50,147 nucleotides of DNA from Methanomicrobia archaeon JdFR-19 (GTDB lineage Archaea > Halobacteriota > Methanosarcinia > DSM-18856 > Methermicoccaceae). Position 1 is the stretch's first letter. Each line of letters starts with the position of its first letter. Both the position numbers and the translations under genes were made by a program. Location: contig MTMG01000008.1 of assembly GCA_002010075.1 (NCBI GenBank), positions 1 through 50,147 on the forward strand. The letters are read 5' to 3'. The notes below the pieces were generated by a model, which saw nothing but the letters and a program-made list of their open reading frames with translations, had not been told where the DNA came from and made no database searches. Positions 7,242 through 47,326 of the stretch are shown here, in pieces.

Positions 7242-7852
7242 GGATACTCCCCGCCCAGACCAACCTTCTTTGCAAACCTCTCAAACAATTCCTTTCCGAC
7301 CAGTGTCTGCTCAGGATAATTCCTCTCGAGGTACTTAACAAACTCGAGTCTTGTGTTGCTGGTAAGACCTGCCACCAATATCTCAACCGCTATCTCCTCG
7401 CTCTCTTTCATATCAATCGGAAGCTCAAGCATAAAGAACGATTCGGGAGGGTTTGGATGGGCATCATACAAAATGTTCCTGAGTATGGGGGACACTGAAC
7501 CCTTAAGAACGCCTCTCTCGAGCTCAACAAGGGGTGGAACTCCTTCAATCTCCATCCTCTGTGGGGAAGTCATCCTTTCGTACGATGAGAGAGAGTATGA
7601 ATGGAGTTCGAAATACATGTCTGGCTTTACCATATCTATCAGAGATAACAGCCTCATTCCGTCTTTTGTGGAATAGAAACGTTTATCGAGTGTACTGATG
7701 TTTGCACTTCCCTCGAGATTGCACACAACAACCTATCCTTGCAAAGGTCTCACTCTCAACCTCTCAAGAAGGTTTCTCAGATGTTTGCCCTCTTTTCTAT
7801 GAACTCCGCCCACGCACAGCCTTATTGGATACTCTGAGTCAGAGCAAGACAT
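7238..7852 (-). CDS. DUF2119 family protein with one in-frame TAG (codon 40)
   Basis: Archaeal protein of unknown function. The N-terminal piece (LCVGGVHRKEGKHLRNLLE) and the long C-terminal piece (ISTLDKRFYS, LELHSY, EGVPPLVELERGVLKGSVSP, YPEQTLV) are the two parts of one DUF2119 protein, separated by a single TAG at 7733-7735 with no frame change. With the TAG read as sense the product is 204 residues, normal for the family. Under the standard code only a GTG-started C-terminal fragment would be called. The start at 7852 is the only ATG near the conserved beginning. It is coupled to endA by an ATGA overlap. The final stop is TGA. Confidence 0.85.
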
Positions 7853-7870
7853 ATAAATGTACATATATGT
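7849..7870. promoter_or_regulatory. Divergent promoter region with two AT-rich near-palindromes
   Basis: Two adjacent dyads, ACATATAAATGT (7849-7860, imperfect) and ACATATATGT (7861-7870, perfect), lie between and partly over the start of the DUF2119 gene and the divergent flavin reductase. They could act as TATA-like elements or as a regulator site for one or both genes. Confidence 0.4.
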
Positions 7871-7873
7871 GAG

Positions 7874-8431
7874 ATGAATAAAGGGATATATATGGTTGCG
7901 GTTGATGATTATTATAAACTGATAGCACCAAGGCCTGTCGTCTGTGTATCTACTGTTGGGAAGAACGGGGCGCACAACATCGCACCGTTCAGCTTCTGCA
8001 CACCACTTTCATTCTCGCCTCCGCTCTTGGGTGTGGCGGTTGGCAAGGGAAAGGATACGCTCAGAAACATGCTTGAGAGTGGAGATTTCGTTGTTGTGCC
8101 TGTCACCCGTGAATGGGCTAAGCAGGCGATTATGACTGCTGAACCTCTGCCCTACGGAAAGAGTGAATTTGAGCTGGCTGGATTGACACCAATCCCTTCA
8201 AAAGTTGTGGCATCTCCCTCGGTTGCTGAGGCGCCCATAAACATCGAATGTACCACCCAAGATAGCTTTGAGACAGGAGACCATGTGTTTGTTGTTGGTA
8301 AGGTTGTGCATGTGGAGTGTTCCGATGAGGCTTTGAAGAAAGGAAGGATAAACATTGAAGAGCTTGGAACGGTTGGACATATCACGAGTGGAGAATTCAC
8401 AATATCAAGTGAAGCGGTTATAATCGAGTGA
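7874..8431 (+). CDS. Flavin reductase-like (flavoredoxin-type) FMN-binding protein
   Basis: Split-barrel FMN-binding protein of 185 residues with the family blocks RPVVCVSTVGKNG, NIAPFSFCTPLSFSPPL and GHITSGEF near the end. Related archaeal proteins are flavoredoxins or NAD(P)H:flavin reductases; the exact partner cannot be told. The start may be at 7874 or at an internal ATG at 7892 that is preceded by AAGGGAT. It lies four bases upstream of cofD on the same strand, so it probably shares a transcript with F420 synthesis. The stop is TGA. Confidence 0.82.
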   Translation: MNKGIYMVAVDDYYKLIAPRPVVCVSTVGKNGAHNIAPFSFCTPLSFSPPLLGVAVGKGKDTLRNMLESGDFVVVPVTREWAKQAIMTAEPLPYGKSEFELAGLTPIPSKVVASPSVAEAPINIECTTQDSFETGDHVFVVGKVVHVECSDEALKKGRINIEELGTVGHITSGEFTISSEAVIIE

Positions 8432-8435
8432 TGAC

Positions 8436-9347
8436 ATGATAGTGTTGTCAGGAGGCACTGGAACGCCGAAACTCATAGATGGACTGAGAGAGATAATAGA
8501 GCCTACATAGCTGACGGTAATCGTGAATACTGCAGATGATATATGGGTGATGGGGAATCTTGTATGTCCTGACTTGGACACTGTGTTGTATCTGCTATCT
8601 GACAAGCTTGACAAAGAAAAATGGTGGGGGGTGGAAGGAGATACGTTCCACACCCACGAGGCCCTCAGCGAACTCGGGTTCGAGGAACCTTTGATGCTGG
8701 GCGATCGAGACAGGGCATTACACATCGTAAGAACCACGTTCCTCTCAAAAGGATACACCCTTACACAAGCCACCATCAAGATTGCAAAGCAGATGGGGAT
8801 AGAACAGACAGTGCTTCCTATGTGTGATGAGAAAGTTGATACATTTGTGGAGACGCCAGAAGGAAGGATGCACTTTCAAGAGTTCTGGGTTGCAAGAAAG
8901 GGAGAGCCATGTGTGGTGGGTGTTCATCATGAGGGAATTGAAGATGCGAAGCTAACATACCAAATACTAAAGGCATTCCGAAGGACGAAATGTGTGGTGA
9001 TAGGACCATCGAATCCAATCACGAGTATAGGTCCGATACTCCATGTGAAGGGAATGAGAAAACTTGTAAAGAAGAAGACAACGGTGGTGGTGTCTCCGTT
9101 GATCGGGAAAAAGGCGGTGAGCGGTCCGGCAGAGAAACTCATGAGGGCGTGTGGTGTGGAGTCTTCCTCAGTTGGAGTGTCACAACTCTACGAGGATGTT
9201 GCAGACTACTTTGTGATAGATGTGAGGGATGAGACAAAGAGTACGGAGTTTGCAATCGATGTTATCCGAGCAGACACTCTAATGGTGTCAAAGGAGAGAA
9301 GTATTTCGCTGGCAAAGGAGATTCTATCGATTCTTGAAGGTGTATGA
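8436..9347 (+). CDS. cofD: CofD, 2-phospho-L-lactate transferase, with one in-frame TAG (codon 25)
   Basis: Joins the phospho(enol)lactyl moiety to Fo to make F420-0, a step of coenzyme F420 synthesis. The protein begins at 8436 with the diphosphate-binding start IVLSGGTGTPKLIDGL, which is then followed by TAG at 8508-8510 and directly by LTVIVNTADDIWVMGNLVCPD, the next conserved block. The TAG sits where homologues have an ordinary residue before the LTV strand. Total 303 residues, normal for CofD. A standard-code call would start at a GTG near 8523 and lose the Gly-rich loop. The gene ends TGA overlapping the ATG of rlmE. cofG is also in this window (37856). Confidence 0.93.
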
Positions 9348-10138
9348 GGATGAGGAGGAGAGGTAGGAAGGATTACTACTACAGAAAAGCGAAGAGAGAG
9401 GGATTTCGTTCGAGAGCTGCATACAAGCTTATCGAGATAGCTGAGCGATTCAGACTATTCAAAGGGAAGGAGAGTGTTGTTGATCTGGGAGCTGCTCCTG
9501 GAGGGTGGCTTCAGGTGGCAAGGGTACTGACAAGGGGAAAAGTTGTCGGTGTTGATATTCAGGAAATAGAGCCAATAGAGGGTGTGGAGATTGTGAAGGG
9601 AGATATAAGGAGAGAGGAGACGCTGGAAAAGGTGAGGGAGATCGTGGAGAGAGTGGATGTCGTTATGTGTGACGCGTCTCCGAACCTCTCTGGAGTGTGG
9701 AGCTATGACCACGCACGTTCAATCGAACTATCTGAACACGCACTCGAATTTGCTAAATCGATGTTGAGAGAAGGTGGAAGTTTTGTGTGCAAGGTTTTCC
9801 AAGGAGACATGTTCAATACTTTCGTTGAGAAGGTCAGAAGTCACTTCACTCACGTACACATATTCACACCAAAGGCGTCAAGAAAGGAGAGTGCAGAGGT
9901 GTATGTGATTGCCAAGGGGTTCTATCATCCCAAAGTTCTTCCAGGAGAAGAATATGATGTGAGGGTGGATGATGTGAGTGAAAGGGGAGAGGGTGTTGCA
10001 AGACTCGATGACTTTGTCGTGTTCATCAAGGGTGCGAAAAAAGGTGAGAGAGTAAGGTGTAGAATAACCAAGGTGAGGCAAAGGTATGCAGTTGCAAAGC
10101 TCATTCCGGATAAATGGGAGTGCCCTCGCTCTCAGTGA
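9344..10138 (+). CDS. rlmE: RlmE/FtsJ-family rRNA 2'-O-methyltransferase with C-terminal TRAM domain
   Basis: Methylates the ribose of 23S rRNA in the peptidyl-transferase region. Residues 1-195 form the FtsJ/RrmJ fold: RSRAAYKL, the SAM loop [24 protein letters not shown] and VCKVFQGD give the K-D-K-E catalytic set. A TRAM RNA-binding domain follows (about 200-260: [21 protein letters not shown]). This fusion is known in methanogens and haloarchaea. The ATG overlaps the cofD stop. The 3' end overlaps convergent ilvE by 38 bases. The stop is TGA. Confidence 0.93.
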
Positions 10139-10988
10139 CCTTTCTGAATTCTTCCATGAGTTTTTTCGTTATTCTCCCTGGTTTCCCATCCCCGATTATC
10201 CTGCCATCTATCTTCACAATAGGTGCTATTTCGGCTGCGGTTCCTGTAACAAAGACCTCGTCCGCTGTGTAGAGGTCGAAAAGTCCGAGCTGGGCCTCGT
10301 ACAACGGTATATTCAGTCTATGAACAATTTCGATTGCAACCTCTCTTGTTATCCCCCTTAGATTGTTGAGAGTTGGAGGGGTGATTATCTTTCCCCTTTT
10401 CACGATGAATATGTTGTCTCCAGAGCCTTCGGAGATGTTTCCTCTGACATCAAGAAAAATCGCCTCATCTCCTCCCTTCACATTCGCTTCTATCTTTGCA
10501 AGCACGTTGTTCAGATAGTTGAGAGACTTTATGTTCGGTGGTAAAGACTCAGGAGGATTCCTTCTTATGCACACGGTAATCGCACTCAATCCTTTCTCGT
10601 AAAGGTCTCCATACATCGCTCCCCACTGCTGTGTTATCACTATGACAGTTGGATTCGAACATTTTCTCGGGTCAAGACCAAGGTCTCCGATGCCTCTTGT
10701 GACTATGGGACGTATGTATGCATCTTTAAGTCCATTCCTTCTCAGGGTCTCGAGTATTACCTCCTTCATTTCTTCCTTTGTGAGGGGGATTTCAAGAGAT
10801 ATTGCCTTCGCAGAATCATAGAGTCGGTCTATGTGCTCATACAGTCTGAACACCCTTCCGTTGTACGCCCTTATGCCCTCAAACACACCATCCCCATACA
10901 AAAACCCATGGTCGTAAATCGATATGCTCGCTTCTTCTTTTGGTACGAATTTTCCATTGATGTAAACAAGCTCACTCAACACAGACAC
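10101..10988 (-). CDS. ilvE: Branched-chain amino acid aminotransferase
   Basis: PLP-dependent fold-type IV aminotransferase for Leu/Ile/Val synthesis, 295 residues. It begins [21 protein letters not shown], then [14 protein letters not shown], and has the PLP lysine in [24 protein letters not shown] and TGTAAEI. These are the standard blocks. The gene lies 5 bases after pycB, on the same strand, linking pyruvate metabolism and branched-chain synthesis. The stop is TGA. Confidence 0.94.
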
Positions 10989-10993
10989 CCCTT

Positions 10994-15281: not shown

Positions 15282-17012
15282 TCAGAGTTTAGGATGTCTT
15301 CTCTGCTCATCCATTTCCTCCTTTTCCCATCTATTCATCCACTCTCTCACAATTCCCATGTCCCTGCCACCCACAACAACCATCTCGTCCCTTATCCATT
15401 CAGGAAGATGCTCAACCACACCCTTCATTCGAAATCTTGCATCACAAAGCAGGATGACCCCTCTATCCCTCTCATCCCTTATCAGCCTGCCAATTGCTTG
15501 AAGTGCTTTGTTCAGAGCGGGAAGTGTGTATGCTATGAACTCTCCCTTCTTCCCATACTTATCTGAGAACTATTCATTTATGCATCTTTGCATCTTGGTG
15601 TATGCAGAGAAGGGTAGTCCAACGACGCACACTCCCTTCAGAATTCCTCTCGGGTAGTCCACTCCCTCAGACAGCTTTCCTCCACACACCCCTATCAACA
15701 CACTGTTATTGGAATGTATGAACTCTCTCAAGAGCTTTGGAACCTCTCTCGCATCCTTTGGCTCGATGAACACTCTTTTCCCAAACCCCTCACAAAAGTC
15801 GGCATAATCCTCCAGCATCTCATAAGATGTGAAGTAAATCGCAACATTTCCCTCTATGCCTTCTATCATCCCTTCAAGATGAGCTTTTATTTCTTCTATA
15901 TTCTGTCTTTTACGCCTTTTGGATGAGTGGGTGGTTGCATTCTTCGATACTAGCACGAGTCGGTTCTCTCTGGGGAACGGATTCGGTAGAGATAACTTAT
16001 CCGCCCTCTTCCCACCAAAGTAGTAGAGTTCGTATGCATCCAGTGGATAGAACGTTCCAGACAACATAATCGTGACACTCACACTATCCACCAACTTCGT
16101 AAGGTGTGGGCTTGGGTCTATTTCGCCAACCCATATACCTGACTCTGTACTTACTATGCTGTGTGAGTGGAGGAGTTTGAGAAACTTTTTCATCTTCCTT
16201 TCGTCACTTTCAGCTTTCTCCACTACCTTGTCTATATCAATTCTCTTCAGAAGCTCGTCTGAAGACGTTATCCCCTTCACATCCTCTGGTATCCAATCCC
16301 TTGTCTCCTCATCTGAAAAATGGACACTGTTTATCGAAGAAATCGCATTTCCAATGTTGTGTGCTTCATCCACAACCAGAATTGTCTCCCGAAGATCAAT
16401 ATCAAGCCATTCAAACACAATATCTCTCAACTCCTCATCAAAAACATGGTTGTAGTTCAGCAATATCACATCTGCATCTCTCGATGCTATCCTCATAACC
16501 TCGTATGGACATGTGCGGGAGCACATCTCCTTTAATCTGTCCGGGCTTGGAATGTCTCTGATTAGTTTGAAGGCATCGAGTAGAGCATCCTCAGAAGGCC
16601 TCCTTCCTCTCCTTGAAGCAGTGTAGTACGGGCATGTTTCTCCCTCATGCTCTTTCCCATACAAAACCCTCAGATACTCACACGCAGAATAACTCTTATC
16701 GAGCTTGCACATCTTCTCCCTACCCACAAGATACGACACTTTCACATTCTTCCCCTTCTCTCTTATTCTCCTTATCTCCTCCAGATACACTTCTATCTGA
16801 CTTACAGTTCTCAGAACAACAACCACCTTCCTCGTTCCTCTTTCGCACAGGACTGCAGATATGCAACTCGTTTTTCCTACTCCTGTCGGGGCATTTATCA
16901 TAAGGACGGGGCTCTGGATGGACTTGGTAGAAACAGCCTCTTTTACTGCCTCGAGCATCTCCCGCTGGTATGGTCTGAAATGTTCATAGGGAAACCAATC
17001 CTCAAGTTTCAT
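15282..17012 (-). CDS. XPD/DinG-type iron-sulfur DNA helicase with one in-frame TAG (codon 481)
   Basis: Superfamily 2 helicase of 576 residues when the TAG at 15570-15572 is read as sense. Motif I APTGVGKT is at 41-48, a cluster of cysteines (102, 111, 127, 164, 168) fits the XPD-type iron-sulfur domain, and DEAH is at 215-218. The part before the TAG ends just after LPFSAYTKMQ; the part after it reads FSDKYGKKGEFIAY and then helicase motif VI QAIGRLIRDERDRG (from 505) and LLCDARF, which is indispensable for ATP hydrolysis. The same frame runs on to a TGA at 15282. The start at 17012 (MKLEDWFPYEHFRPYQREM) fits the family; an upstream in-frame codon would cross the divergent lipoprotein start. 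Function: probably nucleotide excision or general DNA repair. Confidence 0.9.
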
Positions 17013-17614: not shown

Positions 17615-18133
17615 ATGCACAACAAAAAAATATTCCTCACAGGACCGCCAAAATGTGGCAAATCAACAGTTGTTTAGAGAGTGGTGGATACGCTTTAGGG
17701 AATGGAGTGGAGGGTGTGTGGATTCATCAGTCCAGAAATTAGAGACAATGGGAGAGTGGGTTTCAGTCTGATATCGATTCATGACGGTTGGAAGGGTGTG
17801 CTTGCAAACGTGAAGACATCAAGTATAGAACCATCAGAGGCAAAGTTGGGTAAGTACGTTGTGAATGTGAGAGATATTGAAGAGTGTGTTGGAAGGGTTG
17901 TTGCATCGCTGGATGAGTGTGATTTGCTGGTGGTGGATGAGATAGGAAAAATGGAAATGTTATCTAAGAAGTTCAGGGACTTTGTTGAAGATGTTGTGAT
18001 AGAGGGGGATATAGATGTTTTTGCAACTGTTCATAGGTCTCTGGTGAATAAATTTGACATGGGTATCATGATTAGAGTTGATGAGGTTGAGAGAGTGGTG
18101 AGAGAGGTCATATCTCTTTTGATGTCTGAGTGA
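17615..18133 (+). CDS. THEP1-type nucleoside-triphosphatase with two in-frame TAGs (codons 21 and 28)
   Basis: P-loop NTPase/nucleotide kinase of the archaeal THEP1 family (cancer-related NTPase homologue), 172 residues. The Walker A loop GPPKCGKST is at 10-18, before both TAGs (17675-17677 and 17696-17698); after them come GMEWRVCGFISPEIRDNGRVGF, the conserved family block, and the Walker B region LLVVDEIGKMEM. In homologues a basic helix (roughly LVKKVIEELKK) joins the P-loop to the FYTPE-type block, and both TAGs fall in that helix. A standard-code call would start at 17702 and have no Walker A, giving a dead enzyme. The gene starts 2 bases after the lipoprotein stop. The final stop is TGA. 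Confidence 0.88.
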
Positions 18134-20869: not shown

Positions 20870-21391
20870 TCATCTCAACAATGCATCAAATAAGACCACT
20901 CTCTCAAGCACAAGCTCACATATCTTGTCCTAACCGACAGCTTCAATCTCTGGTTCTGTGATGGAAAACCATGAACAGAGTGTCTACCATTTCCATTCAG
21001 AACATCGGATGAGGGAGTCATCTCGATTAAGTTTCAATCTTTGCTGTATTATCTGAATGAGTCTCTGACTGGTTTCTTGATTTGCTTCTTGGTTTATGGA
21101 ATCGACAACAATAACCACCCTGCACTTTCCCCTCTTGAGACCAATCTTTCTGGCATCCTTTATCTGTCTAGTTGCAGCCATGCACAGCAGAAATTCAATA
21201 GATGGGTCGTGTGATATGTTATCTCCATCTCTGAAGGCTCTCCTTGCACACGATAGCGCAAGCTCAATGTGTTCTCTGCCAGCAACGTATTCTGCATCCA
21301 CAATCTGCACGAGATTTGTGTTTCTGATTTCCTTTAACCATGATATGGTCTCTTCCACATCACCTATATGAGCAACTCCGCCAACGAGCAT
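20870..21391 (-). CDS. cgi121: KEOPS subunit Cgi121 with two in-frame TAGs (codons 136 and 154)
   Basis: Cgi121 helps the KEOPS complex (Kae1-Bud32-Pcc1-Cgi121) bind tRNA for t6A modification. The family blocks [41 protein letters not shown] and [14 protein letters not shown] are before the first TAG (20984-20986). The C-terminal part [15 protein letters not shown] (20930-20932), [17 protein letters not shown] matches the conserved Cgi121 tail (F.IT..E..A.....ELV.ERVALLD). Read through, the protein is 173 residues, the usual size, and its TGA falls 7 bases before the next gene. A standard-code call would give a 135-residue truncated protein. Confidence 0.9.
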
Positions 21392-23898: not shown

Positions 23899-23938
23899 TG
23901 TTTCAAAACATATAACTATTATACTCATAAATGTTGTG

Positions 23939-25411
23939 ATGATGGAAGAGCTTGCGAAAGTTGTTGAGAAGTTTGCACAATTTGAACTCATGCTTGAGCC
24001 GGATGCAGCAAAATTACTGTGCAAATACACCCAAGAAGAGTTGGAGTTGATTGCAAGCCTATTCCAGAATAAAAATGTTTTGATTGTCACAAAGACTCTT
24101 GTAGAGAAGGTTATGGGAGAAGTCGAGAAGTCGGTTGATGAGGAACATGGAGGAGAAGAAGATGAGGAAGAGATAGAAGATCAATCAATAAGAAAGAAAG
24201 ATGTAATAAATGTGGTTTATTCAATGAATAATCTGAAATCAACTGGTTCTTATGAAGGCTTTCTTAGTTATTTCAAGAGTAGATACTCGAAACTGGTGTC
24301 TCTCATATCAGATAGAATCTCACCCAGACCCATCTCATCCCTGAGAAAGATTGGTACCTCTGATGATGTCTGGATTGCGGGACTTGTCTCAGATAAAAGA
24401 ACAACAAGGAGTGGGCATGTGATAATAGAATTGGAGGACGAGAGTGGTGTGATGCCTGTTCTCATACCAAAGAACAGTTTTGATGATGTGAATGAAATAC
24501 TTCCTGATGAGATGATAGGTGTGAGAGGACATTTAAATGGAGAGAAGAGGCTCTTTATAGCAACCGATGTTATCTTTCCAGACATACCTGAAAAAAGGTA
24601 TCAGAAAAGGTTGACAGAACAAAATGGAGGGTATGTTGTCCTGACATCTGATACGCATGTAGGAAGCATACATTTTCTTGAAGATGCGTGGAACAGATTT
24701 GTTAGATGGTTAAACTGTGATGTTGGAGATGCGAAAACAAAAAGGATGGCAAGGAATGTTTCGTGTATACTCGTGTGTGGGGACCTCGTAGATGGAATTG
24801 GTATTTATCCAAAACAAGAGACAGAGCTATCTATAGACAATATATTCGAGCAATACAAAGCTCTTGCCGAATACATCGAAGACATACCAGCCCACATTAA
24901 GATAGTGATGTGTCCAGGGAACCATGACATAGTGAGACAAGCCGAACCCCAACCGCCATTATCTGAAAACATTCAGAAATTCTTTGATGACAGAGTTATA
25001 TTTGTTGGAAATCCTTCACTCATTGATGTGAATGGAACAAGGATACTCATGTACCACGGGCGTTCTCTCAATGACCTCATACCCACGCTCGGACTCTCTT
25101 ACGAACGACCCGCAGAGGCAATGTGTAGAATGCTCATAAAGAGACATCTTGCCCCGATGTATGGGAGTACTGTTCCGATAGCACCTGAACCAGAGGATCA
25201 TCTCGTTATAGAGGAGATTCCTGATGTTCTGCATACAGGACATGTGCATGTAGTGGATTACATGAACTACAAAGGTGTGAAGCTTATTAACTCAGGAGCA
25301 TGGCAATCACAGACAGAATATCAGAAGATGAAGAACCTGAAACCAACGCCTGCAAAGGTTCCAGTACTTGATACATCTTCATTGAAGATTGCAATGTTGA
25401 ACTTCAAGTAA
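23939..25411 (+). CDS. polB: DNA polymerase D small subunit DP1 (proofreading exonuclease)
   Basis: 490-residue small subunit of the euryarchaeal replicative polymerase PolD. An N-terminal helical region and an acidic linker (HGGEEDEEEIED) are followed by an OB-fold (about 175-235) and the metallophosphoesterase 3'-5' exonuclease with its Mre11-like motifs LTSDTHVGS, LVCGDLVDG, CPGNHD, YHGR and HTGHVH. Two consecutive ATGs (23939, 23942) could start it. It converges with cdc6 with no gap; the large subunit DP2 is not in the window. The stop is TAA. Confidence 0.94.
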   Translation: MMEELAKVVEKFAQFELMLEPDAAKLLCKYTQEELELIASLFQNKNVLIVTKTLVEKVMGEVEKSVDEEHGGEEDEEEIEDQSIRKKDVINVVYSMNNLKSTGSYEGFLSYFKSRYSKLVSLISDRISPRPISSLRKIGTSDDVWIAGLVSDKRTTRSGHVIIELEDESGVMPVLIPKNSFDDVNEILPDEMIGVRGHLNGEKRLFIATDVIFPDIPEKRYQKRLTEQNGGYVVLTSDTHVGSIHFLEDAWNRFVRWLNCDVGDAKTKRMARNVSCILVCGDLVDGIGIYPKQETELSIDNIFEQYKALAEYIEDIPAHIKIVMCPGNHDIVRQAEPQPPLSENIQKFFDDRVIFVGNPSLIDVNGTRILMYHGRSLNDLIPTLGLSYERPAEAMCRMLIKRHLAPMYGSTVPIAPEPEDHLVIEEIPDVLHTGHVHVVDYMNYKGVKLINSGAWQSQTEYQKMKNLKPTPAKVPVLDTSSLKIAMLNFK

Positions 25412-26641
25412 TTAAATTAGGCTCGTCTGAGTTGAGGCTCTGAATCCTGAAAGTTCTTTGAGTCTGTAGTCCTCGTTGAGAACCAACTTGATTGTTTCTA
25501 TGGAGGCACTGAGAGATACTTCCTTCGTTCTGCCATGTCGCCCCTTGCTTATCACGGTCGCATTCACAATCCCAAGCATATCGAGTTCAGATATCAAGTC
25601 CGTGACTCTTCTCTGTGTAAGCACATCAGCACCTATGTACATGCACATCTGCCTATACACTCTATATATTTCACCAGTTGTAAAGCTCTTCATCCTTCCA
25701 CTAAGCCATACTATCGAAGCCAAAACAAGTTTTGACTGAGTCGGGAGGGTTCTCACAACCTCAACTACTCTGTCAACCTCTATCTTATCTTGAGCCATAC
25801 GTACATGCTCTTCAGTCACTCTCTTGTCTCCCCTCCTCTCTGCAAGCTCTGCAGATATCCTCAAGAGATCAAGAGCTCTTCTTGCATCTCCATGCTCCTG
25901 AGCTGCATACGCAGAACACAGCGGTATGACGGTATCATCCAACACACCCTCTTTAAAAGCCTCCTCTGCCCTCTGTTTGAGTATATCCTCTATCTGGGTT
26001 GCATTGTAAGGAGGGAATATTAGCTCTTCCTCCCCAAGAGAGCTCCTCACCCTCGGGTCAAGGTGGTCTGTGAATGTGAGGTCATTGGTGATTCCGATTA
26101 TACTAACCTTTGAGTTCTTCAGATTTGAATTCATCCTCGATAGATTGTACAGTACATCATCCCCCCTCCTCGCAAGTTTGTCTATCTCATCCAATATTAT
26201 TATGGCAATCCTGAACTCAGAGTCAAGTCCCTCCCTGAACTCCTCATAAACCCTGTCCGTAGGCCATCCAGTCATAGGGACGTCTCTTCCAAAATATGTT
26301 GCGAGATGTGCGAGTAAACGATACTGTGTATCCACTATCTCACAGTTCACATATATCACATAAAGGGGAAGACCTTTTGCTTCTCCCATGTCTTCAAGTT
26401 CCTTGCCAACAAACTTCGCCACTGCAGTTTTCCCTGTCCCAGTCTTGCCATATATCAGAACGTTGGAGGGTGAATCCCCTCTCAACGCAGACACCAGTAT
26501 GGATGCAAGATGATTTACTTGTTCCTCCCTATGAGGGAGATAGTCTGGTGTATGGCTTGAACGAAGTACCTCTCTGTTTTTGAATAGAGTATCTTTATTT
26601 AGTAATTCCTCAAATATCTTGCTTAACGCTCCTGTGGCCAT
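25412..26641 (-). CDS. cdc6: Orc1/Cdc6 replication initiator
   Basis: AAA+ protein that binds ORB sites and loads MCM. The Walker A GKTGTGKT is at 65-72, Walker B is IIILDEIDKL, sensor 1 is IIGITND, sensor 2 lies in GDARRALDLLR, and the C-terminal winged helix is present (RRVTDLISELDMLGIV). 409 residues, usual length. It is transcribed away from the AT-rich region 26642-27042, the normal arrangement for an archaeal origin. The stop is TAA. Confidence 0.95.
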   Translation of the reverse strand: MATGALSKIFEELLNKDTLFKNREVLRSSHTPDYLPHREEQVNHLASILVSALRGDSPSNVLIYGKTGTGKTAVAKFVGKELEDMGEAKGLPLYVIYVNCEIVDTQYRLLAHLATYFGRDVPMTGWPTDRVYEEFREGLDSEFRIAIIILDEIDKLARRGDDVLYNLSRMNSNLKNSKVSIIGITNDLTFTDHLDPRVRSSLGEEELIFPPYNATQIEDILKQRAEEAFKEGVLDDTVIPLCSAYAAQEHGDARRALDLLRISAELAERRGDKRVTEEHVRMAQDKIEVDRVVEVVRTLPTQSKLVLASIVWLSGRMKSFTTGEIYRVYRQMCMYIGADVLTQRRVTDLISELDMLGIVNATVISKGRHGRTKEVSLSASIETIKLVLNEDYRLKELSGFRASTQTSLI

Positions 26642-26694
26642 GCTCCTCCCCGAGACACCTTCTTATCTATATATATTCAAAAGTTATGGTTATG

Positions 26695-26714
26695 ACCCCT
26701 TTATTTCAACTGGA
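26695..26714 (-). repeat. ORB-like element 1
   Basis: On the minus strand the sequence reads TCCAGTTGAAATAAAGGGGT. This has the TCCAGTGGAAA dyad and downstream G-run of the Cdc6-binding ORB/mini-ORB consensus. The G-run points toward cdc6, away from the AT-rich core. It matches element 2 at 16 of 20 positions. Confidence 0.65.
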
Positions 26715-26796
26715 CAAATAAAAGGATTTTCTTCTCAATATTATCAAAATTTCTAAAACAAGTGTACGGATAATTATATAAAAATAATCATAATTT

Positions 26797-26909
26797 TTTA
26801 TATGGAATGATATGTTGGTGACGTGTATCAGTATTTCTGTAAAAAAACGTTTGTTTCATATGGAAAATATGAAGACCGACCCTATGATTTCTTATGGAAA
26901 ATGAGATTG
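26797..26909 (+). repeat. Three direct copies of a TATGGAA motif in the origin region
   Basis: Cores TATGGAATGATA (26801), TATGGAAAATATGA (26859) and TATGGAAAATGAGA (26893) occur in the same direction; the last two are also preceded by TTTC. The starts are 58 and 34 bases apart. They may be weak ORB relatives (a TGGAAA core) or sites for another origin protein. Confidence 0.45.
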
Positions 26910-26976
26910 TATTATTATTAGAGCGACTATCGAAGTTCGATATATATTGCTTACAAATGTTATCACAAAGAAGATT

Positions 26977-26996
26977 TTCAGTAGAAAAGAAGGGGT
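26977..26996 (+). repeat. ORB-like element 2
   Basis: The plus strand reads TTCAGTAGAAAAGAAGGGGT, 16 of 20 identical to element 1 and in opposite orientation, so the pair brackets about 260 bases of AT-rich sequence, as in other archaeal origins. Confidence 0.65.
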
Positions 26997-27042
26997 AGGG
27001 TCTTTATATACATAATCAAATTATACAAACATACATGAGCAC

Positions 27043-32003: not shown

Positions 32004-32366
32004 ATGGAAGGATTTGCTGATGTAATACTTAAAGTGGTTTATGAATATGTGAAACAAGGAGATGCAGAGGAGTTATGCTCGCGTATTTGTTCGTTCATTG
32101 GAATAACAGCAAAAGACCCTATTTCGGTTGTGAATGCGGTGGGGGAAGCTGTCGTAGATCACGGTCTTGCAAAGGGATTTGAGAGCATGGAACTCATAGA
32201 TGGCGCAATCTCTCTGAATTTTTGGGGATGTGAAAGTGATTTGAAGGGCGTTGATGTGGTTCTTGTGTGTGCATTGCTTTCGAAAGTGGGGGAGGAGTAT
32301 GAGGTCGTTGAAACAGTCTCTGATAACCAACACCAGTACCTTCTTCGACCTCACTCAAGCACCTAA
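32004..32366 (+). CDS. Small cytoplasmic protein of unknown function
   Basis: 120 residues beginning MEGFADVILKVVYEYV; alpha/beta pattern, acidic, no signal peptide or membrane segment. I do not recognise the family. A TATA box precedes it, codon use looks like its neighbours, and the reading frame is intact to TAA. It converges on the ADP-kinase gene and overlaps the read-through end of that gene by 16 bases. No other function can be given. Confidence 0.6.
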   Translation: MEGFADVILKVVYEYVKQGDAEELCSRICSFIGITAKDPISVVNAVGEAVVDHGLAKGFESMELIDGAISLNFWGCESDLKGVDVVLVCALLSKVGEEYEVVETVSDNQHQYLLRPHSST

Positions 32367-33445
32367 TGAATGTATCCTCCTGTGAAAGCATCACCAAGCC
32401 CGACTGTTGTCTTTGGTTTATCGACCAACAGTGAAGGAACAACACATTCGATAACGTCCCCATACAAAACTGCTCCGTTCTCATCACCACCCATCCTATG
32501 GGCAAGCTCGACTCCTTTCTTGCTTGGTGGAGTCGAGATATCTGGCTTGAGGTTCTCGAGCGTTCCATGAGATGCAAGGAAGGACGCAACCCTCACTCCA
32601 CATCTCATACCTTCCAGAACCTTCTCAACTCTCTCCTCGCATGCGATGGTTGCATACACAAAGTCCTTGGTATGTACATATACGATGGGAATCCCCCACA
32701 TTTCTAGGGCATTTTTTAGGTTACTGGAACCCAGAAGTTCGGACATTTCCTCCTCATTGAATCCCAGACTCTATATATCAATCTCAGCAAGCACTCTTTT
32801 CACAACTTCGATGTTGGCTATCGAGCCGAGTTCTACATGAATCTCAATTCCTTCTTTGTTCATCTTTTTCAGAAAGGAGAGGGCTGGTTCAATGTCTTCA
32901 AACTTTCTTACCAGATGAAACCCGGATGCAAACATACCCTCGAATTCTTTTATATGTTCCAATGCTTCTTTTTCGAATTCAGGATTCAAACAAAGCTAAG
33001 AATTTAACGGGTCATATGTAAAAATGACCCTATCGCTATTTTTTATAAAAATATCCCCAAAGTACCCTCTTTCAAACTCGAAAACATAATGAACACACTC
33101 TCCTTCAGTACTCACAGGTGGGACAATAACACCTTTTGGTATAAGGGGCAACACATCAGGAGAGACAACGTTGAGCATGGGCCCATCCCCAAGCAACGAT
33201 AGAACTTTGGCAACGTTTGCAGCATTCCCTCCCAGTCTGTCCTCACCCCGGATGTGAGATAACATCAGGGCAACATCTCTATTCACAACATACTCTTTCC
33301 CTTTACCAGATTTCATATGTGAGAGAATTGTTTCAACGACATTGGTTGCCCCCTTTCTTTCTAACTCATTCAAGACACCCTTGCTCACTTTGATAACTCT
33401 ATCTATGTTGGAATTGAAGCCACACAATACTTTCACAATACTCAT
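32351..33445 (-). CDS. ADP-dependent sugar kinase (glucokinase/phosphofructokinase family) with three in-frame TAGs (codons 150, 225, 361)
   Basis: ADP-dependent kinase of the modified archaeal glycolysis, ribokinase-like fold. Three consecutive standard-code fragments are pieces of one protein: KVLCGFNSNIDRVI and DRLGGNAANVA (first), then after TAG 32996-32998 the FASGFHLV and GIEIHVELGS region, then after TAG 32771-32773 SLGFNEEEM, the NXXE metal motif (Asn230, Glu233), and finally KTTVGLGDAFTGG with the catalytic Asp352. A last TAG at 32363-32365 lies three codons before a TGA. At 364 residues it is shorter than typical 450-residue members. I cannot tell glucose from fructose-6-phosphate specificity. 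Confidence 0.85.
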
Positions 33446-33788: not shown

Positions 33789-35912
33789 ATGAAGAGCAAG
33801 GTCATTAGCAGAGATAAAAGGCTTGTACAAAAAACCCTGTTTGGAGAATATGTCTCTCCACTCCCCAAGGTGAGAACAACAGACGGACACATAATGGAGT
33901 GGGACAAAGAAAGGATTGTTGAAACTCTTATAAGAGAGTCGAAATTGGCGGAGCATTTCTATGGTATGCCCCCAATGGACAGAGACACTGCATGGGACGT
34001 TGCGAGGGAGGCTGAGAAGAGAATCATATGGATGAATCCGAAATTCCTCTCAGCTCCTTTGATTAGAGAGGTTGTGAACACGGTTCTACTTGAATGGGGC
34101 TTTCCAGAGTACAGAAACATTCTCACACGCGTCGGCATTCCAGTGTATGATGCATATGAAATAGACATGGGAAAGGGATTTGAGGCAAAGGAGAATGCAA
34201 ACCTTCAGGAGAATGCAGAAACCTCACACAAGAAGAAGGCTGACAAAATATCAAAAGAACAGTATCTCCTTTGCATCCCTCATCATATTGCAGATGCACA
34301 TCTCAATGGGGATATACACATACATGATTTGGAATATTTTGGCACGAGAGCGTTCTGTCAGGATTGGGATTTACGTTATTTCTTCTACTATGGTCTCATG
34401 CCAGACGGTTCTGGAAGAAAAGCATCGGTTGCAGGACCTGCCAAAAAACCAGAAGTTGCAGTACTTCATGCGGTGAAGACACTCGGAAGTGCCCAGACTA
34501 ACTTTGCAGGGGGGCAAGGCTTCTACAACTTCCTCACATTTTTGGCTCCTTACTTGGAGGGACTCTCTTACGATGAAATAGAACAGCTGATGCAGATGTT
34601 TGTTTATGAGATGACACAGATGATGGTTGCCCGTGGGGGGCAGATGGTCTTCTCTTCTGTTCAGCTCACTCCAGGAGTTCCAAAGCTCTGGAGAGACAAA
34701 CCAGTTGTGTATGCTGGAAAAGTTTGGGATGGTTCTCAAGCACCGCTCAGAACGTATGGCGAGTTTGAGAGGGAAACGAGATTGGCGTTCAAGGCATTGA
34801 TGAATGTCATGCTACAGGGGGATGTGATGGGCAAGCCATTCAACTTCCCGAAGCCAGAGATTGCAATCACTCCTGAGTTTCTTAATGATGGTGAAGATGT
34901 GCCTGATGCACCATCCTATGACGAGCTTTATTCGTTATCTTTTGAGCTGACCGCCAAGTTTGGTACCCCATACTTCGACAACCAGATTCCAGCTTATCGT
35001 GGTGGTGGAGAAGGTGTATCATGTTATCAGTGCTGTGCATACCAGTTCTCAAGCACAGCAGAAAATGACGAGCATTTCGAGGATAAGATGTACTTTGTGA
35101 ATGGTGCCCACTTCTCGATGGGTGCGGTTCAGGTCGTATCTATCAACTGCCCAAGGGCAGCATATCGTGCTGGAGGGGAGGACAACAGACTATTTGAAGA
35201 ACTCAAAAGAATGATGGATCTGGCGGTAGAAACATTTCATGTGAAAAAGGGATGGATTGATGAGATTGTGAAGTGTGGAAGGATGCCTTTTGCAACCCAG
35301 AGACCTCGTGATCCGAATACAGGGGAGAAGGGAGCACAGGCTGTTGATATGGATGGCTTAGTTTATACCATAGGTGTTGTGGGCATAAACGAAATGGTTC
35401 AGCACCACACTGGCTATCAGCTTCATGAGTCAAAGGATGCTTTTAAGCTGGCTGTGAGAGCCATGACTGAGATGGAATTCTATGCACGTGAGCTATCTGA
35501 AAAACACAGGATGGAAATCGCACTCGCAAGAACGCCAGCAGAAACAACTGTTCAGAGATTCGCAGTATCAGACTTGCTTAACAGAGAGTACAGAGAATAC
35601 GCCGTAAGGACAATAAAAGGGAATGTTGAGTATGCACTTTCTAACATCAGGGAAACAAGGGATTTGCCCGTATATTACACGAATGGAACCCATGTCCCGT
35701 ATGATGCAGATATTTCTCTGCACGAGCGAGTGATGATTGAGCATATATTCTTCCCCATAGTCGATGGAGGAAACATACTCCACATATTCCTTGGAGAGCC
35801 AAACCCATCGCCTGCCGGACTGAGAGAGTTTGCCATGAACATAGCGAGGAACACCCAAGTCGGATACTTCGCATTCACAAAAGACATGACGTTCTGTCTT
35901 AGCGAGGATTGA
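33789..35912 (+). CDS. nrdD: Anaerobic (class III) ribonucleotide reductase NrdD lacking its C-terminal glycyl-radical tail
   Basis: Reduces ribonucleotides to deoxyribonucleotides. 707 residues from the ATG at 33789. An ATP-cone occupies about 1-100 (KVRTTDGHIMEWDKERIVETL) and the barrel carries the CYQCC active-site cysteines and INCPRAAYR. The homologous part runs to GYFAFTKDMTFCLSED and stops at TGA, exactly where other NrdDs continue with a CxxC...CxxC zinc module and the RVTGY-type glycyl-radical loop. Neither is found in any frame downstream. No nrdG activase is adjacent. Either the tail is a separate gene elsewhere or the protein is inactive or unusual. Confidence 0.9.
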   Translation: MKSKVISRDKRLVQKTLFGEYVSPLPKVRTTDGHIMEWDKERIVETLIRESKLAEHFYGMPPMDRDTAWDVAREAEKRIIWMNPKFLSAPLIREVVNTVLLEWGFPEYRNILTRVGIPVYDAYEIDMGKGFEAKENANLQENAETSHKKKADKISKEQYLLCIPHHIADAHLNGDIHIHDLEYFGTRAFCQDWDLRYFFYYGLMPDGSGRKASVAGPAKKPEVAVLHAVKTLGSAQTNFAGGQGFYNFLTFLAPYLEGLSYDEIEQLMQMFVYEMTQMMVARGGQMVFSSVQLTPGVPKLWRDKPVVYAGKVWDGSQAPLRTYGEFERETRLAFKALMNVMLQGDVMGKPFNFPKPEIAITPEFLNDGEDVPDAPSYDELYSLSFELTAKFGTPYFDNQIPAYRGGGEGVSCYQCCAYQFSSTAENDEHFEDKMYFVNGAHFSMGAVQVVSINCPRAAYRAGGEDNRLFEELKRMMDLAVETFHVKKGWIDEIVKCGRMPFATQRPRDPNTGEKGAQAVDMDGLVYTIGVVGINEMVQHHTGYQLHESKDAFKLAVRAMTEMEFYARELSEKHRMEIALARTPAETTVQRFAVSDLLNREYREYAVRTIKGNVEYALSNIRETRDLPVYYTNGTHVPYDADISLHERVMIEHIFFPIVDGGNILHIFLGEPNPSPAGLREFAMNIARNTQVGYFAFTKDMTFCLSED

Positions 35913-35914
35913 GG

Positions 35915-36463
35915 ATGGAGGTTGAAAAACGTAGGTGGGTTGATTTTCTATTACACGATGCATCTAACTACATACAGGGAGCACGTGGCTACATCGAGAT
36001 TTTGAAGATTTGTGGGGATAAGGGAAAATCAGATGTTTATATACAAAAGTCTCTTGAACAGCTTGACAAATTGATAGAACTCTTAGATTATGCAAATATT
36101 TTAAACAAAATCGAAAAAAAGCAGTTATCATTACAGAAAATAGATGTTGAGGCATATCTTCGCAGATTTTGTACACCTGAATCACAAGGGTGTGTTGTCA
36201 ATGCAGACTCGATGTTGTATGATGCCCTTGATAACCTTGTATAGGTTGCCGAAGAAATGGGAGGAAAGTTTGTTATAACCCCCCAAAAGATAGAGTTGGT
36301 TCTTGACACTGACGAGGATATAAGCATGCTACCATATTTCACAAGGTTCAAGACCGAAAAGGATAGGGTAGGGTTTGGGCTGTCACTTGCGAAACTCGTC
36401 TGTGAGAGGCATGGTTGGGATTTTGATGTTTTTGAGAATAGAGTAGTAATACTTATTCAATGA
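35915..36463 (+). CDS. Small histidine-kinase-like protein with one in-frame TAG (codon 110)
   Basis: About 182 residues: a dimerisation/His-box-like start (DFLLHDASNYIQGARGYIEIL), an N-box-like region DALDNLV followed by TAG at 36242-36244, then VAEEMGGKFVITPQKIELVLD and a G-box GFGLSLAKLVCERHGW. The order fits a HisKA plus HATPase core with no sensor domain. The motifs are degenerate: the N-box lacks the usual second Asn and the DxGxG box is replaced by DTDED, so it may not phosphorylate. It starts 2 bases after nrdD. The stop is TGA and the end overlaps convergent purB by 11 bases. Confidence 0.6.
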
Positions 36464-42094: not shown

Positions 42095-42100
42095 GACCTC

Positions 42101-42286: not shown

Positions 42287-42294
42287 ACTCCTCA

Positions 42295-42340: not shown

Positions 42341-42344
42341 AGAT

Positions 42345-42743: not shown

Positions 42744-42833
42744 GAATAATGGAGGAGGGGGTGGTTGGACAAAAACATAAAATATTACTTATATCAAATT
42801 TACTTTACCACCCTTCCAATTGTTTATATTAAT

Positions 42834-42845
42834 CTTATATAAAGG
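42834..42845 (+). promoter_or_regulatory. TATA box for mptA
   Basis: CTTATATAAAGG lies about 35-45 bases before the preferred ATG at 42879, giving a very short leader. It supports that start over the in-frame GTG at 42864. Confidence 0.55.
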
Positions 42846-42878
42846 TTATGACAAAAGGTAAGCGTGAAGTGGTTTGTC

Positions 42879-43814: not shown

Positions 43815-43833
43815 ATATATAAATAGTTTAAAA
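43814..43833 (+). promoter_or_regulatory. TATA box for the TBP gene
   Basis: The AT-rich run AATATATAAATAGTTTAAAA lies 25-45 bases before the TBP ATG at 43859. TBP thus appears to be read from a strong TATA element, which would allow autoregulation. Confidence 0.55.
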
Positions 43834-43858
43834 TAACTAAAAAACGTGGGGACACTTT

Positions 43859-44398
43859 ATGATAAGGATTGAGAATGTTGTCGCTTCTACAAAACTGGCA
43901 GACTCTTTCGACCTGAATCGTATCGTTGCTGAGTTCGAGGATGCAGAGTACAATCGAAAGAAATTTCCCGGTCTGGTTTATCGCGTGAAGAATCCGAAGG
44001 CTGCCTTCCTCGTGTTCACGTCTGGAAAGGTGGTTTGCACAGGTGCAAAGTCGGTGGAGGATGTGCATACTGTCATACATAGGGTTGCCAAACACTTTAG
44101 AGACCATGGCATCCCCACGTACGAGAATCCCGATATCAAGGTACAGAATATCGTAGCTTCTGCAGACCTTGGGGCAGACCTGAATCTGAACGCAATAGCG
44201 ATAGAGATGGGATTTGAGAATATAGAGTACGAGCCAGAGCAGTTCCCCGGTCTTGTTTACAGATTGGATGAGCCAAAAGTGGTTGTTTTGATATTCAGCT
44301 CTGGAAAACTCGTCGTCACCGGTGGAAAATCACCAGAAGCCTGTGTGAAAGGCGTCGAAAAGGTGAGAGAACAACTTGAAAAAATGGGATTGCTGTGA
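43859..44398 (+). CDS. tbp: TATA-box binding protein
   Basis: 179 residues built of the two TBP repeats: repeat 1 [39 protein letters not shown]; repeat 2 [40 protein letters not shown]. Key DNA-contact positions are conserved. It is followed three bases later by tsr3. The stop is TGA. Confidence 0.97.
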
Positions 44399-44401
44399 GT
44401 G

Positions 44402-44896
44402 ATGAGACTGTTGGTTTATCATGCAAATCAATGTGATCCAAAGAAATGTACGGGCAGAAAACTCGCCCGATTTGGTCTTGTACGCCTTATAAGAAATTTC
44501 AGGGAAGCGCCATCGGGTTCTGTGCTATTGAACCCATTTTCCAAGAAAGCCCTTTCGAGAGAGGATTCAAACACCCCAGCCATTGTGGCACTCGATTGCT
44601 CATGGGATAGGGTTGAGAAAATGTTTCCAGTTCGTGGCATGAGGTCAAGGTCGCTTCCATATCTGGTTGCCTCAAATCCCGTGAACTTTGGTAAGCCATT
44701 CAAACTGTCAACTGCAGAGGCACTCGCAGCCTCACTTTACATCTTGGGGTACAAGGAGATGGCTTTCGAAATCATGTCTAAATTTAAGTGGGGGCATGTT
44801 TTTCTGGAGATGAACAAACAACCACTCGAAGAATACTCGAGAGCAAAAACATCGATTGAGGTCGTGAAAATACAGAACGAATACATGGGATTATAA
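44402..44896 (+). CDS. tsr3: Tsr3, 16S rRNA aminocarboxypropyltransferase
   Basis: Transfers the 3-amino-3-carboxypropyl group of SAM onto a small-subunit rRNA pseudouridine (SPOUT-like fold). 164 residues: YHANQCDPKKCTGRKLARFGLV, LDCSWDRVEKMF, RSLPYLVASNPVNFGKPFKLSTAEALAA match the archaeal DUF367/Tsr3 family. The ATG at 44402 follows the TBP TGA closely; a GTG lies at 44399. The stop is TAA. Confidence 0.92.
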   Translation: MRLLVYHANQCDPKKCTGRKLARFGLVRLIRNFREAPSGSVLLNPFSKKALSREDSNTPAIVALDCSWDRVEKMFPVRGMRSRSLPYLVASNPVNFGKPFKLSTAEALAASLYILGYKEMAFEIMSKFKWGHVFLEMNKQPLEEYSRAKTSIEVVKIQNEYMGL

Positions 44897-44900
44897 GAGT

Positions 44901-44922
44901 TTATAAAAAAGCTTTTTTATAA
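44901..44922. promoter_or_regulatory. Perfect 22-base palindrome in the argG promoter
   Basis: A perfect inverted repeat with half-site TTATAAAAAAG ends 19 bases before the argG ATG. It overlaps the place where a TATA box would lie, so it may be both promoter core and operator; a poly-A/T hairpin for the tsr3 transcript is also possible. Confidence 0.55.
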
Positions 44923-44941
44923 CGTTATCAACATCAAATTC

Positions 44942-46096
44942 ATGGGTAAGGTAGTTCTTGCATATTCCGGAGGGCTGGACACATCTGTGTGCGTACCATT
45001 GCTCAGAGAGCATTATGGTTTTGATAGCGTAATTACTGTTTTGGTTGATGTTGGACAGCCAGATATATCAGAGGCAGAGCAGAAAGGTAGGATGATAGCT
45101 GACGAACATTACACCATTGATGCGAAGAGAGAATTTGTTGTGGATTACATCTTCCCCCTCATAAAGGCGAATGGATGTTATGAGGGATATGTTTTAGGAA
45201 CAGCAATCGCTCGCCCCCTCATCGCAAGAAAAGTTATCGATATAGCTCGCAAGGTTGGGGCAGATGCTGTCGCTCATGGATGCACAGGAAAAGGAAATGA
45301 CCAGCTGAGGTTTGAGGCAATATTCAGAGCAACTGAATTCAAAGTTGTGGCACCCATGAGGGAACTTGAACTAACGAGGGAATGGGAGATAGAGTATGCA
45401 AAGAAGCACAAGATACCTGTTCCTGCAACCAAAGAAAAACCTTGGAGTGTGGATGAGAATCTCTGGTCGAGGTCAATAGAGGGAGGAATTCTTGAAGAAC
45501 CAGGGAATGTTACGCCTGAAGAGGTGTATGCTTGGACATCATCCAAAGAAACGAGTCCAGAGGAAATAATGGTAGAATTTGAGAGAGGTATTCCGACCAA
45601 AGTTAATGGAAAGACGTTTGAGCCAGTCGAGTTGATAAAGAAGCTGAACGAGATTGGTGGGAGACACGGAGTTGGAAGAACAGATATGATAGAGGACAGG
45701 GTGATAGGGATAAAGGCGAGGGAGAATTATGAGCATCCAGCTGCAACCATCCTCCTTACAGCCCATAGAGACCTCGAATCGCTCACGTTGACCTATCGCC
45801 AGCTGAAAATAAAAAGGATGCTTGAACAAGAATGGGCAGAACTCGTTTATCACGGCTTGGTTGAAGAGCCATTGTTCAAGGATTTGAATGCGTTTATTGA
45901 TTCAACACAAGAATGTGTGAGCGGATGGGTGAAGTTGAGGTTGCATGCGGGCTCGTGTGTGGTGGTTGCTCGTGGCTCTCCGAATGCCCTTTATTCTAAA
46001 GAACTTGCCTCCTTTGAGACAAAGATAGACGGCAGAGATGCAGAAGGTTTTTGCAAGCTTCATGGTCTTCAGGCAAGGTTGAGAAAACGCACATGA
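44942..46096 (+). CDS. argG: Argininosuccinate synthase
   Basis: Joins citrulline and aspartate using ATP in arginine synthesis. 384 residues: the PP-loop SGGLDTS at 9-15, [15 protein letters not shown], and [15 protein letters not shown] bare 22-base palindrome lies upstream. It is convergent with pus10, separated by 6 bases. The stop is TGA. Confidence 0.96.
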
Positions 46097-46102
46097 GGGG
46101 AT

Positions 46103-47326
46103 TCAGATAAGAACTTCAAGGACATCCAGTTCAACAACTCTTGCCTCGAGCCCCAAGAGTTCGGACAACGAGGGAGACGTCCTCCCCTCATCCCCTGAAA
46201 CAAGCTCTTTTATGTACGTACCACTTTCTGCCTCTATTTCAATTACAGCTTCTCTACCCTGATGAGAAACCAGTTTTGTGTTCATAATCCTTCTCTCTCT
46301 TGTAAGATCTGCTCTTCGATGGAGCACCCTTTTTGGGGTTCTCTGGAATATCACAGTATTTTTGAGCTTTTGAAGTGCCTCTTCAACCACCTTCTTCTCT
46401 ACCTCTTTTTCAAACTCTACCCTCACTCTGTAGATTTTGGGAGGTTTCATGCTCTTCACATGAAGGATATCTTCTCTCTCTCCATACTCGAGTCCAATTA
46501 CCTCAACCTTCCCAGCACAATATTCGTTTACCTCCCCTTCAAGCCATTTTAGGTCAATTTTTCTTTTTCTTGGCTTTATCACCTCAAGCACAAACGGTCT
46601 CCCCCTCCCCAGCATCCTTGCATCTATGTCCTCCCTTCCAGCACCATGAAATGCGGTATCCTCTGCTTTAAATTCTTCAATCACCCTCTTTGATATCAGC
46701 TCATCTATACTTTCGGGATACTGTTTTCCTGTGAATCCGCACTCTTCACATCCTCTTCCTTTACAGGAACGATGGGGCCACCTTGTTTGTGGAAATCCTC
46801 TTACAAGCTTTCTATACCTTCCCTTTATGAAAACAGACCTGGGATGTATTCTGACTTCGTCATTCTTGAGGTCTATGTGAACAACAACATCTGGTTTATG
46901 AAAATCCACCTCCTTTCCAAGGATGGAAGATATCTTTTTTCCAACCTCTCTGTTCAATTCCGCCTTTAGAGGCTCTGCATGTATCTCTCCATTTTCATAG
47001 AGAATCGACCAGGCATATTCTTCGTTTGCAGACAGCAATCCTGAGACAGTCGTACCAACAAGAAAAGTATCGAACTCATAATCTTCAAGTTTTTTCAGTG
47101 CTTTTTTTACCCAGTTATCTATCTCTGAAAACAGACCATTACAAATCCAGCATTTTCCCTCCTATCTCTCCTGAATCCCTTCCATTTCGAGCACCAGTCT
47201 TATTGCCTTTCCTCTTTCCTCATTTGTGTAGCCAGTTGCAAGTCTGCCAAACAATCTCCCAAGGCAATTGTCACATATGTATCCCTCCCCGAGGATTTTC
47301 TTTGCTTTTTCAAGAATCAAGAACAT
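46103..47326 (-). CDS. pus10: tRNA pseudouridine synthase Pus10 with one in-frame TAG (codon 55)
   Basis: Makes pseudouridine 54 and 55 in archaeal tRNA. The full reading gives 407 residues: an N-terminal zinc module with Cys18, Cys21 (YICDNCLGR) and, after TAG at 47162-47164, Cys59, Cys62 (GKCWICNGLF), then the THUMP-like part and the catalytic domain with FHGAGREDIDARMLGRGRPFV holding the catalytic Asp and GTYIKELVSGDEGRT near the end. The TAG falls between the two halves of the zinc site. The ATG at 47326 overlaps the valS stop. A standard-code call would start at a TTG at 47038 and lose the zinc module. The stop is TGA. Confidence 0.92.

Follow-up and report, generated by a model that had tools for sequence, protein, structure and literature searches.

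In-frame TAG codons across the genome of Methanomicrobia archaeon JdFR-19 point to UAG as a sense codon, probably for pyrrolysine

Archaea in which all TAG codons are read as pyrrolysine (Pyl), with a full set of pyl genes and TAGs in housekeeping genes, were reportedly described by Kivenson et al. in Science in 2025. The lineage of Methanomicrobia archaeon JdFR-19, studied here from a stretch of 50,147 nucleotides (the window; contig C4:1-50147) in which in-frame TAGs lie within eight genes, looks like a further one with a genome-wide Pyl code, and could already be listed in that report. Among the hits listed by our own literature search, with most subscription journals outside its reach, none described genome-wide decoding of TAG in an archaeon, which is not evidence that no such paper exists. 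As far as the accessible parts of the published accounts go, Candidatus Methanomethylophilus alvus has 16 predicted Pyl proteins besides the methylamine methyltransferases and 1.6% TAG stops, and Methanosarcina has 4-5% TAG stops (PMC4153887); the Sifarchaeia carry Pyl genes, yet 21% of their stops are TAG (PMC9723677); and nine genomes with a PylS that lacks the N-terminal domain contain two to six TAG-containing methylamine methyltransferase genes (PMC9071458). The present genome is well beyond all of these. JdFR-19 itself has been placed in the class with PylSn and PylSc (review PMC9499178, accessible part).

We propose that in this lineage, which belongs to the same class as Methanosarcina, UAG is very probably a sense codon read as pyrrolysine genome-wide, with UAA and UGA terminating. 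A first-pass annotation made from the window alone had suggested TAG-to-pyrrolysine decoding, and that suggestion is now supported by a complete pyl set, a tRNA-Pyl, the genome-wide occurrence of in-frame TAG and its conservation in a sister species. The genome assembly comprises 1,288,683 bases in 27 contigs and is 89.75% complete. Gene models in the window were built on codon usage with only TAA and TGA allowed as stops and TAG read as a residue; they number 49, of which 32 end in TGA and 17 in TAA. The first-pass annotation had listed 52 gene ends, with the same 32 TGA and with 20 TAA; its 12 in-frame TAGs in eight genes were all recovered at the coordinates it gave (Table 1). Because such models are barred from ending in TAG by construction, termination was examined separately, through extension scores, the coding signal after stops and the sister species.

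Ten of the 12 TAGs are enclosed by a Pfam or NCBIfam match above its curated cut-off that continues on either side of the codon, namely those of DUF2119, CofD, the helicase C domain, THEP1 (two), Cgi121 (two), the ADP kinase (two of three) and Pus10. The two weaker cases are the TAG at 36242, where the HATPase_c match is below cut-off, and that at 32363, near the end of the ADP kinase gene, where three codons follow before a TGA; the latter could be a sense codon, or else a relic stop or terminator with the TGA as back-up. Structures in the PDB align across the TAG sites of CofD (3c3d, residues 1-300, with E opposite the TAG) and of THEP1 (1ye8 and 2i3b, across both TAGs), while a PDB search with Cgi121 gave no match. 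The helicase frame is open to 17111. The ADP-dependent sugar kinase (32351-33436) is itself some 90 residues short of its family model, with 361 residues against 453 positions.

Table 1. Genes of the window that contain in-frame TAG codons, with family matches and the codon found in the sister species.
Gene	Coordinates	Strand	TAG position (residue)	Family match	Sister species
DUF2119 gene	7238..7852	-	7733-7735 (40)	PF09892, 159 bits, residues 7-193, spans TAG	TAG
cofD (2-phospho-L-lactate transferase)	8436..9347	+	8508-8510 (25)	TIGR01819, 388 bits, residues 1-297	TAG
XPD/Rad3-type DNA helicase	15282..17012	-	15570-15572 (481)	PF13307, residues 382-542, spans TAG	TAG
THEP1-type NTPase	17615..18133	+	17675-17677 (21), 17696-17698 (28)	PF03266, residues 5-149	both TAG
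Cgi121 (KEOPS subunit)	20870..21391	-	20984-20986 (136), 20930-20932 (154)	PF08617, residues 22-166; NF011465, residues 2-170	both TAG
ADP-dependent sugar kinase	32351..33436	-	32996-32998 (147), 32771-32773 (222), 32363-32365 (358 of 361)	PF04587, residues 1-240; NF010642, residues 1-361, below cut-off	all TAG
Histidine-kinase-like gene	35909..36463	+	36242-36244 (112)	HATPase_c, residues 101-174, below cut-off	TAG
Pus10 tRNA pseudouridine synthase	46103..47329	-	47162-47164 (56)	TIGR01213, 520.6 bits, residues 7-406, spans TAG	outside sister sequence

The sister species, Methanosarcinales archaeon B74_G9 (scaffold B74_Guay9), is taken to belong to the same genus, because its genome and the one assigned to that genus give identical matches at identical coordinates, and shows a DNA identity of 92.4 to 94.6% over long matches. 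All 11 comparable TAG sites of the window are TAG in the sister (the twelfth, at 47162, falls outside its coverage), which argues strongly against sequencing error. Across 18,703 aligned codons, 24 of 26 TAGs are kept as TAG (92.3%), compared with 93.0% for methionine codons, 96.8% for tryptophan codons and 82.6% for all codons. At the two sites where TAG is not kept the sister has TAT and CAG, and two sister TAGs face GAA and CAG here. None of 64 aligned terminal TAA or TGA codons has become TAG in the sister, while five exchanges between TAA and TGA were seen and three terminal stops face a non-stop codon; in addition, the sister has TGA at two codons that are internal here. Since TAG is kept like the codon for methionine and terminal stops never become TAG, it evolves as the sole codon for an amino acid would, rather than as a stop.

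To the window we added 19 further stretches, giving a sample of 419,773 bases in all, or about 33% of the genome, with an overlap of 147 bases between one stretch and the window. When TAG is read as sense, 65 of the 417 gene models in this sample carry 85 TAGs, and TAG is the rarest sense codon at 0.71 per 1000, the next being CGG at 1.21. A stricter count, adopted because start sites are uncertain and confined to TAGs at residue 30 or later and at least 10 residues from the end, gives 54 TAGs, in 46 genes. Thirty of the 57 TAG-containing genes outside the window, picked for internal TAGs, were scanned for protein families, and an above-cut-off match extends over 30 of their 36 TAGs; three of these 30 fall in an SMC/Rad50-type coiled coil that the profile skips and two lie no more than four residues from the edge of the match. 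Two of the 30 scanned proteins had no Pfam match. The families concerned include thymidylate kinase (three TAGs), 3-dehydroquinate synthase II, dehydroquinase, the signal recognition particle receptor FtsY, anthranilate phosphoribosyltransferase (TrpD), HisB, homoserine dehydrogenase, MoaC, QueC, a CofH-type enzyme, Trm1 and a decarboxylase that we take to be of the MfnA type. In-frame TAG is thus spread through many unrelated conserved genes genome-wide. Next to the MfnA-type gene lies an open reading frame that by eye resembles a phage portal protein (L029:8731-9810, contig C2) and possibly marks a provirus in a recoded host.

Standard-code gene ends carry a corresponding signal. When the 20 in-frame codons past such ends were scored by codon usage, the mean was +1.95 after TAG (39 genes), against -2.37 after TAA (117) and -1.45 after TGA (271), with a clear coding signal after 49%, 9% and 15% of ends, respectively; in the sister the mean after TAG was +3.07 (13 genes). 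For comparison, 38 of 61 named loci served as controls, grouped by taxon name, and the signal after TAG was negative in every group: -2.71 in Methanolobus (24 of 212 genes end in TAG), -2.84 in other Methanosarcinaceae (19 of 115; 11 loci, one titled only Methanosarcinales), -1.74 in Methanohalophilus (2 of 54), -1.71 in Methanosarcina (1 of 23), -0.50 at a single Methanococcoides locus (1 of 12), and -1.27, -3.20, -4.78 and -2.42 at four single loci of other archaea (3 of 17, 5 of 15, 5 of 16 and 10 of 16). PylS was found in 60 of 119 surveyed genomes of relatives; the 58 outside this genus all belong to one family of the same class, which we take to be the Methanosarcinaceae, and the relatives with PylS have it in an open frame of 406 to 553 codons, that is, in the fused form. 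On the negative signal in the controls, TAG is still a stop in relatives that come from a PylS-carrying family, with the presence of pyl genes known at the level of the family and not for each control genome.

The first-pass annotation had pointed to pylS, a tRNA with a CUA anticodon and pylBCD as what to look for in the rest of the genome, and a complete set was found. pylSc (contig C6:53500-54219; TIGR02367, 298 bits, cut-off 178) is directly preceded by a separate pylSn (TIGR03912, 94.5 bits, cut-off 51), and the tRNA-Pyl gene, pylSn and pylSc follow one another in that order (locus L027, 8000-9226). pylB (TIGR03910, 417.6 bits, cut-off 348) and pylC (TIGR03909, 335 bits, cut-off 248) are adjacent at 6.1-8.4 kb of contig C6, and pylD is on contig C18 (TIGR03911, 222 bits, cut-off 150). 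Compared with 12 rows of relatives, aligned from 20 loci tried, PylSc keeps the Pyl-pocket residues at 306, 346, 384 and 417, with A in place of C at 348, in what we take to be the M. mazei numbering. The tRNA-Pyl, identified with ARAGORN, has the anticodon CTA and is identical over its 71 bases in the sister; its anticodon stem is 6 bp long, its D loop has 5 bases and its variable loop 3, a single base separates the acceptor and D stems, and G73 is present, all features listed as tRNA-Pyl traits in the accessible part of a review (PMC9499178). No CTA anticodon occurs among the 45 other tRNAs found with RF00005, all of whose anticodons were read, two of them only with introns allowed. We caution that tRNA-Pyl escaped RF00005, and that an unusual tRNA could likewise have been overlooked, either beyond the third of the genome covered directly with ARAGORN or in the missing part; tRNA-Tyr and tRNA-Trp were not among the 45 either, and are perhaps in the missing part or hidden by introns.

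A search for methylamine methyltransferases that covered MtmB recovered one mtmB with a single TAG, exactly at the place of Pyl202 in M. barkeri MtmB. MtmB requires Pyl at its TAG. Two divergent MtmB homologues without TAG (C9:38669-39991 and C14:15182-16522, L054) are candidate pyrrolysine-independent relatives. At the other sites, among the proteins aligned here, no canonical residue common to the homologues was found: opposite TAG they have E in CofD, K/H and G/K in THEP1, N/E/R/K in TrpD, H in HisB (five near-identical sequences), E/R in FtsY and E/R in MoaC. The three TAG places of thymidylate kinase hold S/P/R/K, mostly A (23 of 26 rows) and Q/K/Y/R in relatives, and that of 3-dehydroquinate synthase mostly P (23 of 29 rows); as the positions with A and P indicate, some TAGs replace a residue conserved in relatives. 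The PDB queries carried K for TAG, which may tilt those alignments slightly. Because the homologues share no canonical residue, no other CUA tRNA was found and the mtmB TAG sits at the Pyl site, pyrrolysine is favoured, and from the residues at the codon's places, the tRNAs and MtmB it is by far the most likely residue at TAG. By extension from sequence, every TAG-containing protein would carry pyrrolysine.

How far TAG has ceased to terminate is less clear-cut. Under the standard code 40 of 429 models end in TAG, and for 15 of them the stretch up to the following TAA or TGA has an extension score below 5. One of the 15 TAGs lies inside a Pfam domain (PurE-type AIRC); with that case removed, about 14 of 429 models (3.3%) could have real TAG ends, a rough count and no strict limit. 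The first-pass claim that no TAG serves as a terminator accordingly agrees with the terminal stops aligned with the sister, none of 64 being TAG there, and is weakened by these roughly 14 models. The genome has one complete aRF1; a second, weaker match elsewhere, in two pieces, is presumably Pelota. In the complete aRF1 NIKS is intact, as are Y and C in YxCxxxF, but the latter motif reads YHCASEF, with A where D stands in 28 of 28 aligned relatives (the alignment excludes one genome, G030, whose match is in two pieces), and the sister likewise has YHCASEF. Since about 25 other positions of aRF1 also deviate from columns conserved in at least 90% of relatives, the A is singled out for its position in the motif. 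For human eRF1 the largest drop in UAG release comes from changes at E55, Y125 and F131 (Table 1 of PMC4698671), and the Paramecium eRF1, which reads UGA, is altered in NIKS and in the YxCxxxF motif (PMC12440015), in each case according to the accessible part of the source. These eukaryotic data make a role for the aRF1 substitution plausible, and by analogy we regard the A for D as a candidate cause of weak UAG termination.

Taken together, UAG would have turned into a sense codon in this lineage: PylB, PylC and PylD would make pyrrolysine, the split synthetase PylSn + PylSc would charge it to tRNA-Pyl, whose CUA anticodon would read UAG throughout the genome, and termination would be carried by UAA and UGA, with UAG termination probably weakened through the changed stop-recognition motif of aRF1. 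Several observations weigh against genome-wide sense decoding. The coding signal after stops is not specific by itself, because 15% of TGA and 9% of TAA ends also look coding downstream, and 51% of the 39 standard-code models ending in TAG show no clear coding signal beyond it; 31 of the 85 TAGs drop out under the stricter count, and some of those near starts may reflect wrong start sites. The genome is about 90% complete so that a second CUA tRNA is possible, and the aRF1 change is a correlation in one lineage. Finally, the weak extension scores of 15 of the 40 TAG-ended models mean that some TAG ends may be real, and eight of the 85 TAGs lie in the last five codons, against 1.8 expected, with one to four codons left before TAA or TGA. 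In our reading these near-end TAGs either are former terminators with a second stop close behind them or are a few terminators still in use.

The first of these two options belongs to a stricter form of our proposal, to which we give slightly less than an even chance. It holds that the Methanosarcina-related lineage has a fixed code of 62 sense codons and 21 amino acids, that aRF1 lost efficient UAG recognition via changes in YxCxxxF, that pyrrolysine would be obligate for nucleotide synthesis, protein export and cofactor synthesis on any substrate, and that former TAG terminators have been reduced to read-through relics, each followed within a few codons by a new TAA or TGA. The second option leads to ambiguous decoding, as proposed for Methanosarcina, in which UAG is pyrrolysine in many genes and terminates a minority through competition from aRF1, a nearby TAA or TGA serving as a safety stop. 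It shares ground with our proposal and differs only in the remaining terminators; we regard it as a serious contender that we nevertheless doubt more than we believe. The excess of near-end TAGs, the weakly coding extensions (one of them inside a Pfam domain) and the retention in aRF1 of NIKS and of the Y and C of YxCxxxF are consistent with it, but the terminal stops of the sister include no TAG among 64 despite five swaps between TAA and TGA, and FtsY, thymidylate kinase and similar proteins need efficient decoding.

If UAG were instead a methylamine-dependent switch, with short products when pyrrolysine is absent and long ones when it is present, there would be a precedent in Acetohalobium arabaticum, where UAG is Pyl only on trimethylamine (PMC8211752, accessible part). 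We consider such regulated readthrough improbable, since TAGs stand early in enzymes with a central role in other organisms (residue 27 in thymidylate kinase, 46 in FtsY, 25 in CofD and 56 in Pus10), whose short products would probably be useless. Still less probable is that another tRNA places a canonical amino acid at UAG. The TAT and CAG at lost sites in the sister and the sister TAG opposite CAG would fit such a reassignment, about 10% of the genome is missing and RF00005 can overlook an odd tRNA; against this stand a tRNA-Pyl that is the only CUA tRNA found, homologues without a common residue and the need of MtmB for Pyl, and a reassignment to glutamine, for example, was rejected on the first two grounds. 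Pseudogenes, sequencing errors or assembly errors are hardly conceivable despite an assembly in 27 contigs, because error and decay were rejected on the strength of 11 of 11 comparable window sites being TAG in the sister as well, whose DNA differs by about 7%, family matches run on in frame past TAG, and the mean signal after stops is coding for TAG, unlike TAA or TGA.

Elsewhere in the window, a DNA polymerase subunit B-type gene and cdc6/orc1, both without TAG, are convergent, tail to tail (23936-26494), and a replication origin possibly lies in the gap upstream of cdc6 (26495-27042). An Rfam search of the window gave no match.

The lineage adds a case in which, across central genes, a stop codon appears to have come to encode the 22nd amino acid. 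On this reading standard annotation shortens many genes of this organism, and its split-class pyrrolysyl-tRNA synthetase (PylRS) and tRNA offer a probably efficient pair. The contrast with the Methanosarcinaceae, a family with pyl genes in which TAG is still a stop, together with the aRF1 change, makes the order of events in the capture of a stop codon testable. Methanosarcina and other Methanosarcinaceae resemble the present lineage in belonging to the same class and in having pyl genes, and presumably also in an MtmB with TAG, but differ in that TAG ends 47 of 416 models in the five control groups, with no coding signal beyond. With the PylSn + PylSc class the present genome, that of a relative of the Methanosarcinaceae, shares separate pylSn and pylSc genes; genome-wide TAG decoding is not reported for JdFR-19 in the accessible part of the review cited for its placement (PMC9499178). 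Ca. M. alvus likewise uses TAG beyond the methyltransferases, whereas here 65 of the 417 models in the sampled third of the genome carry TAG, the lineage belongs to another branch of the archaea and PylSn is present.

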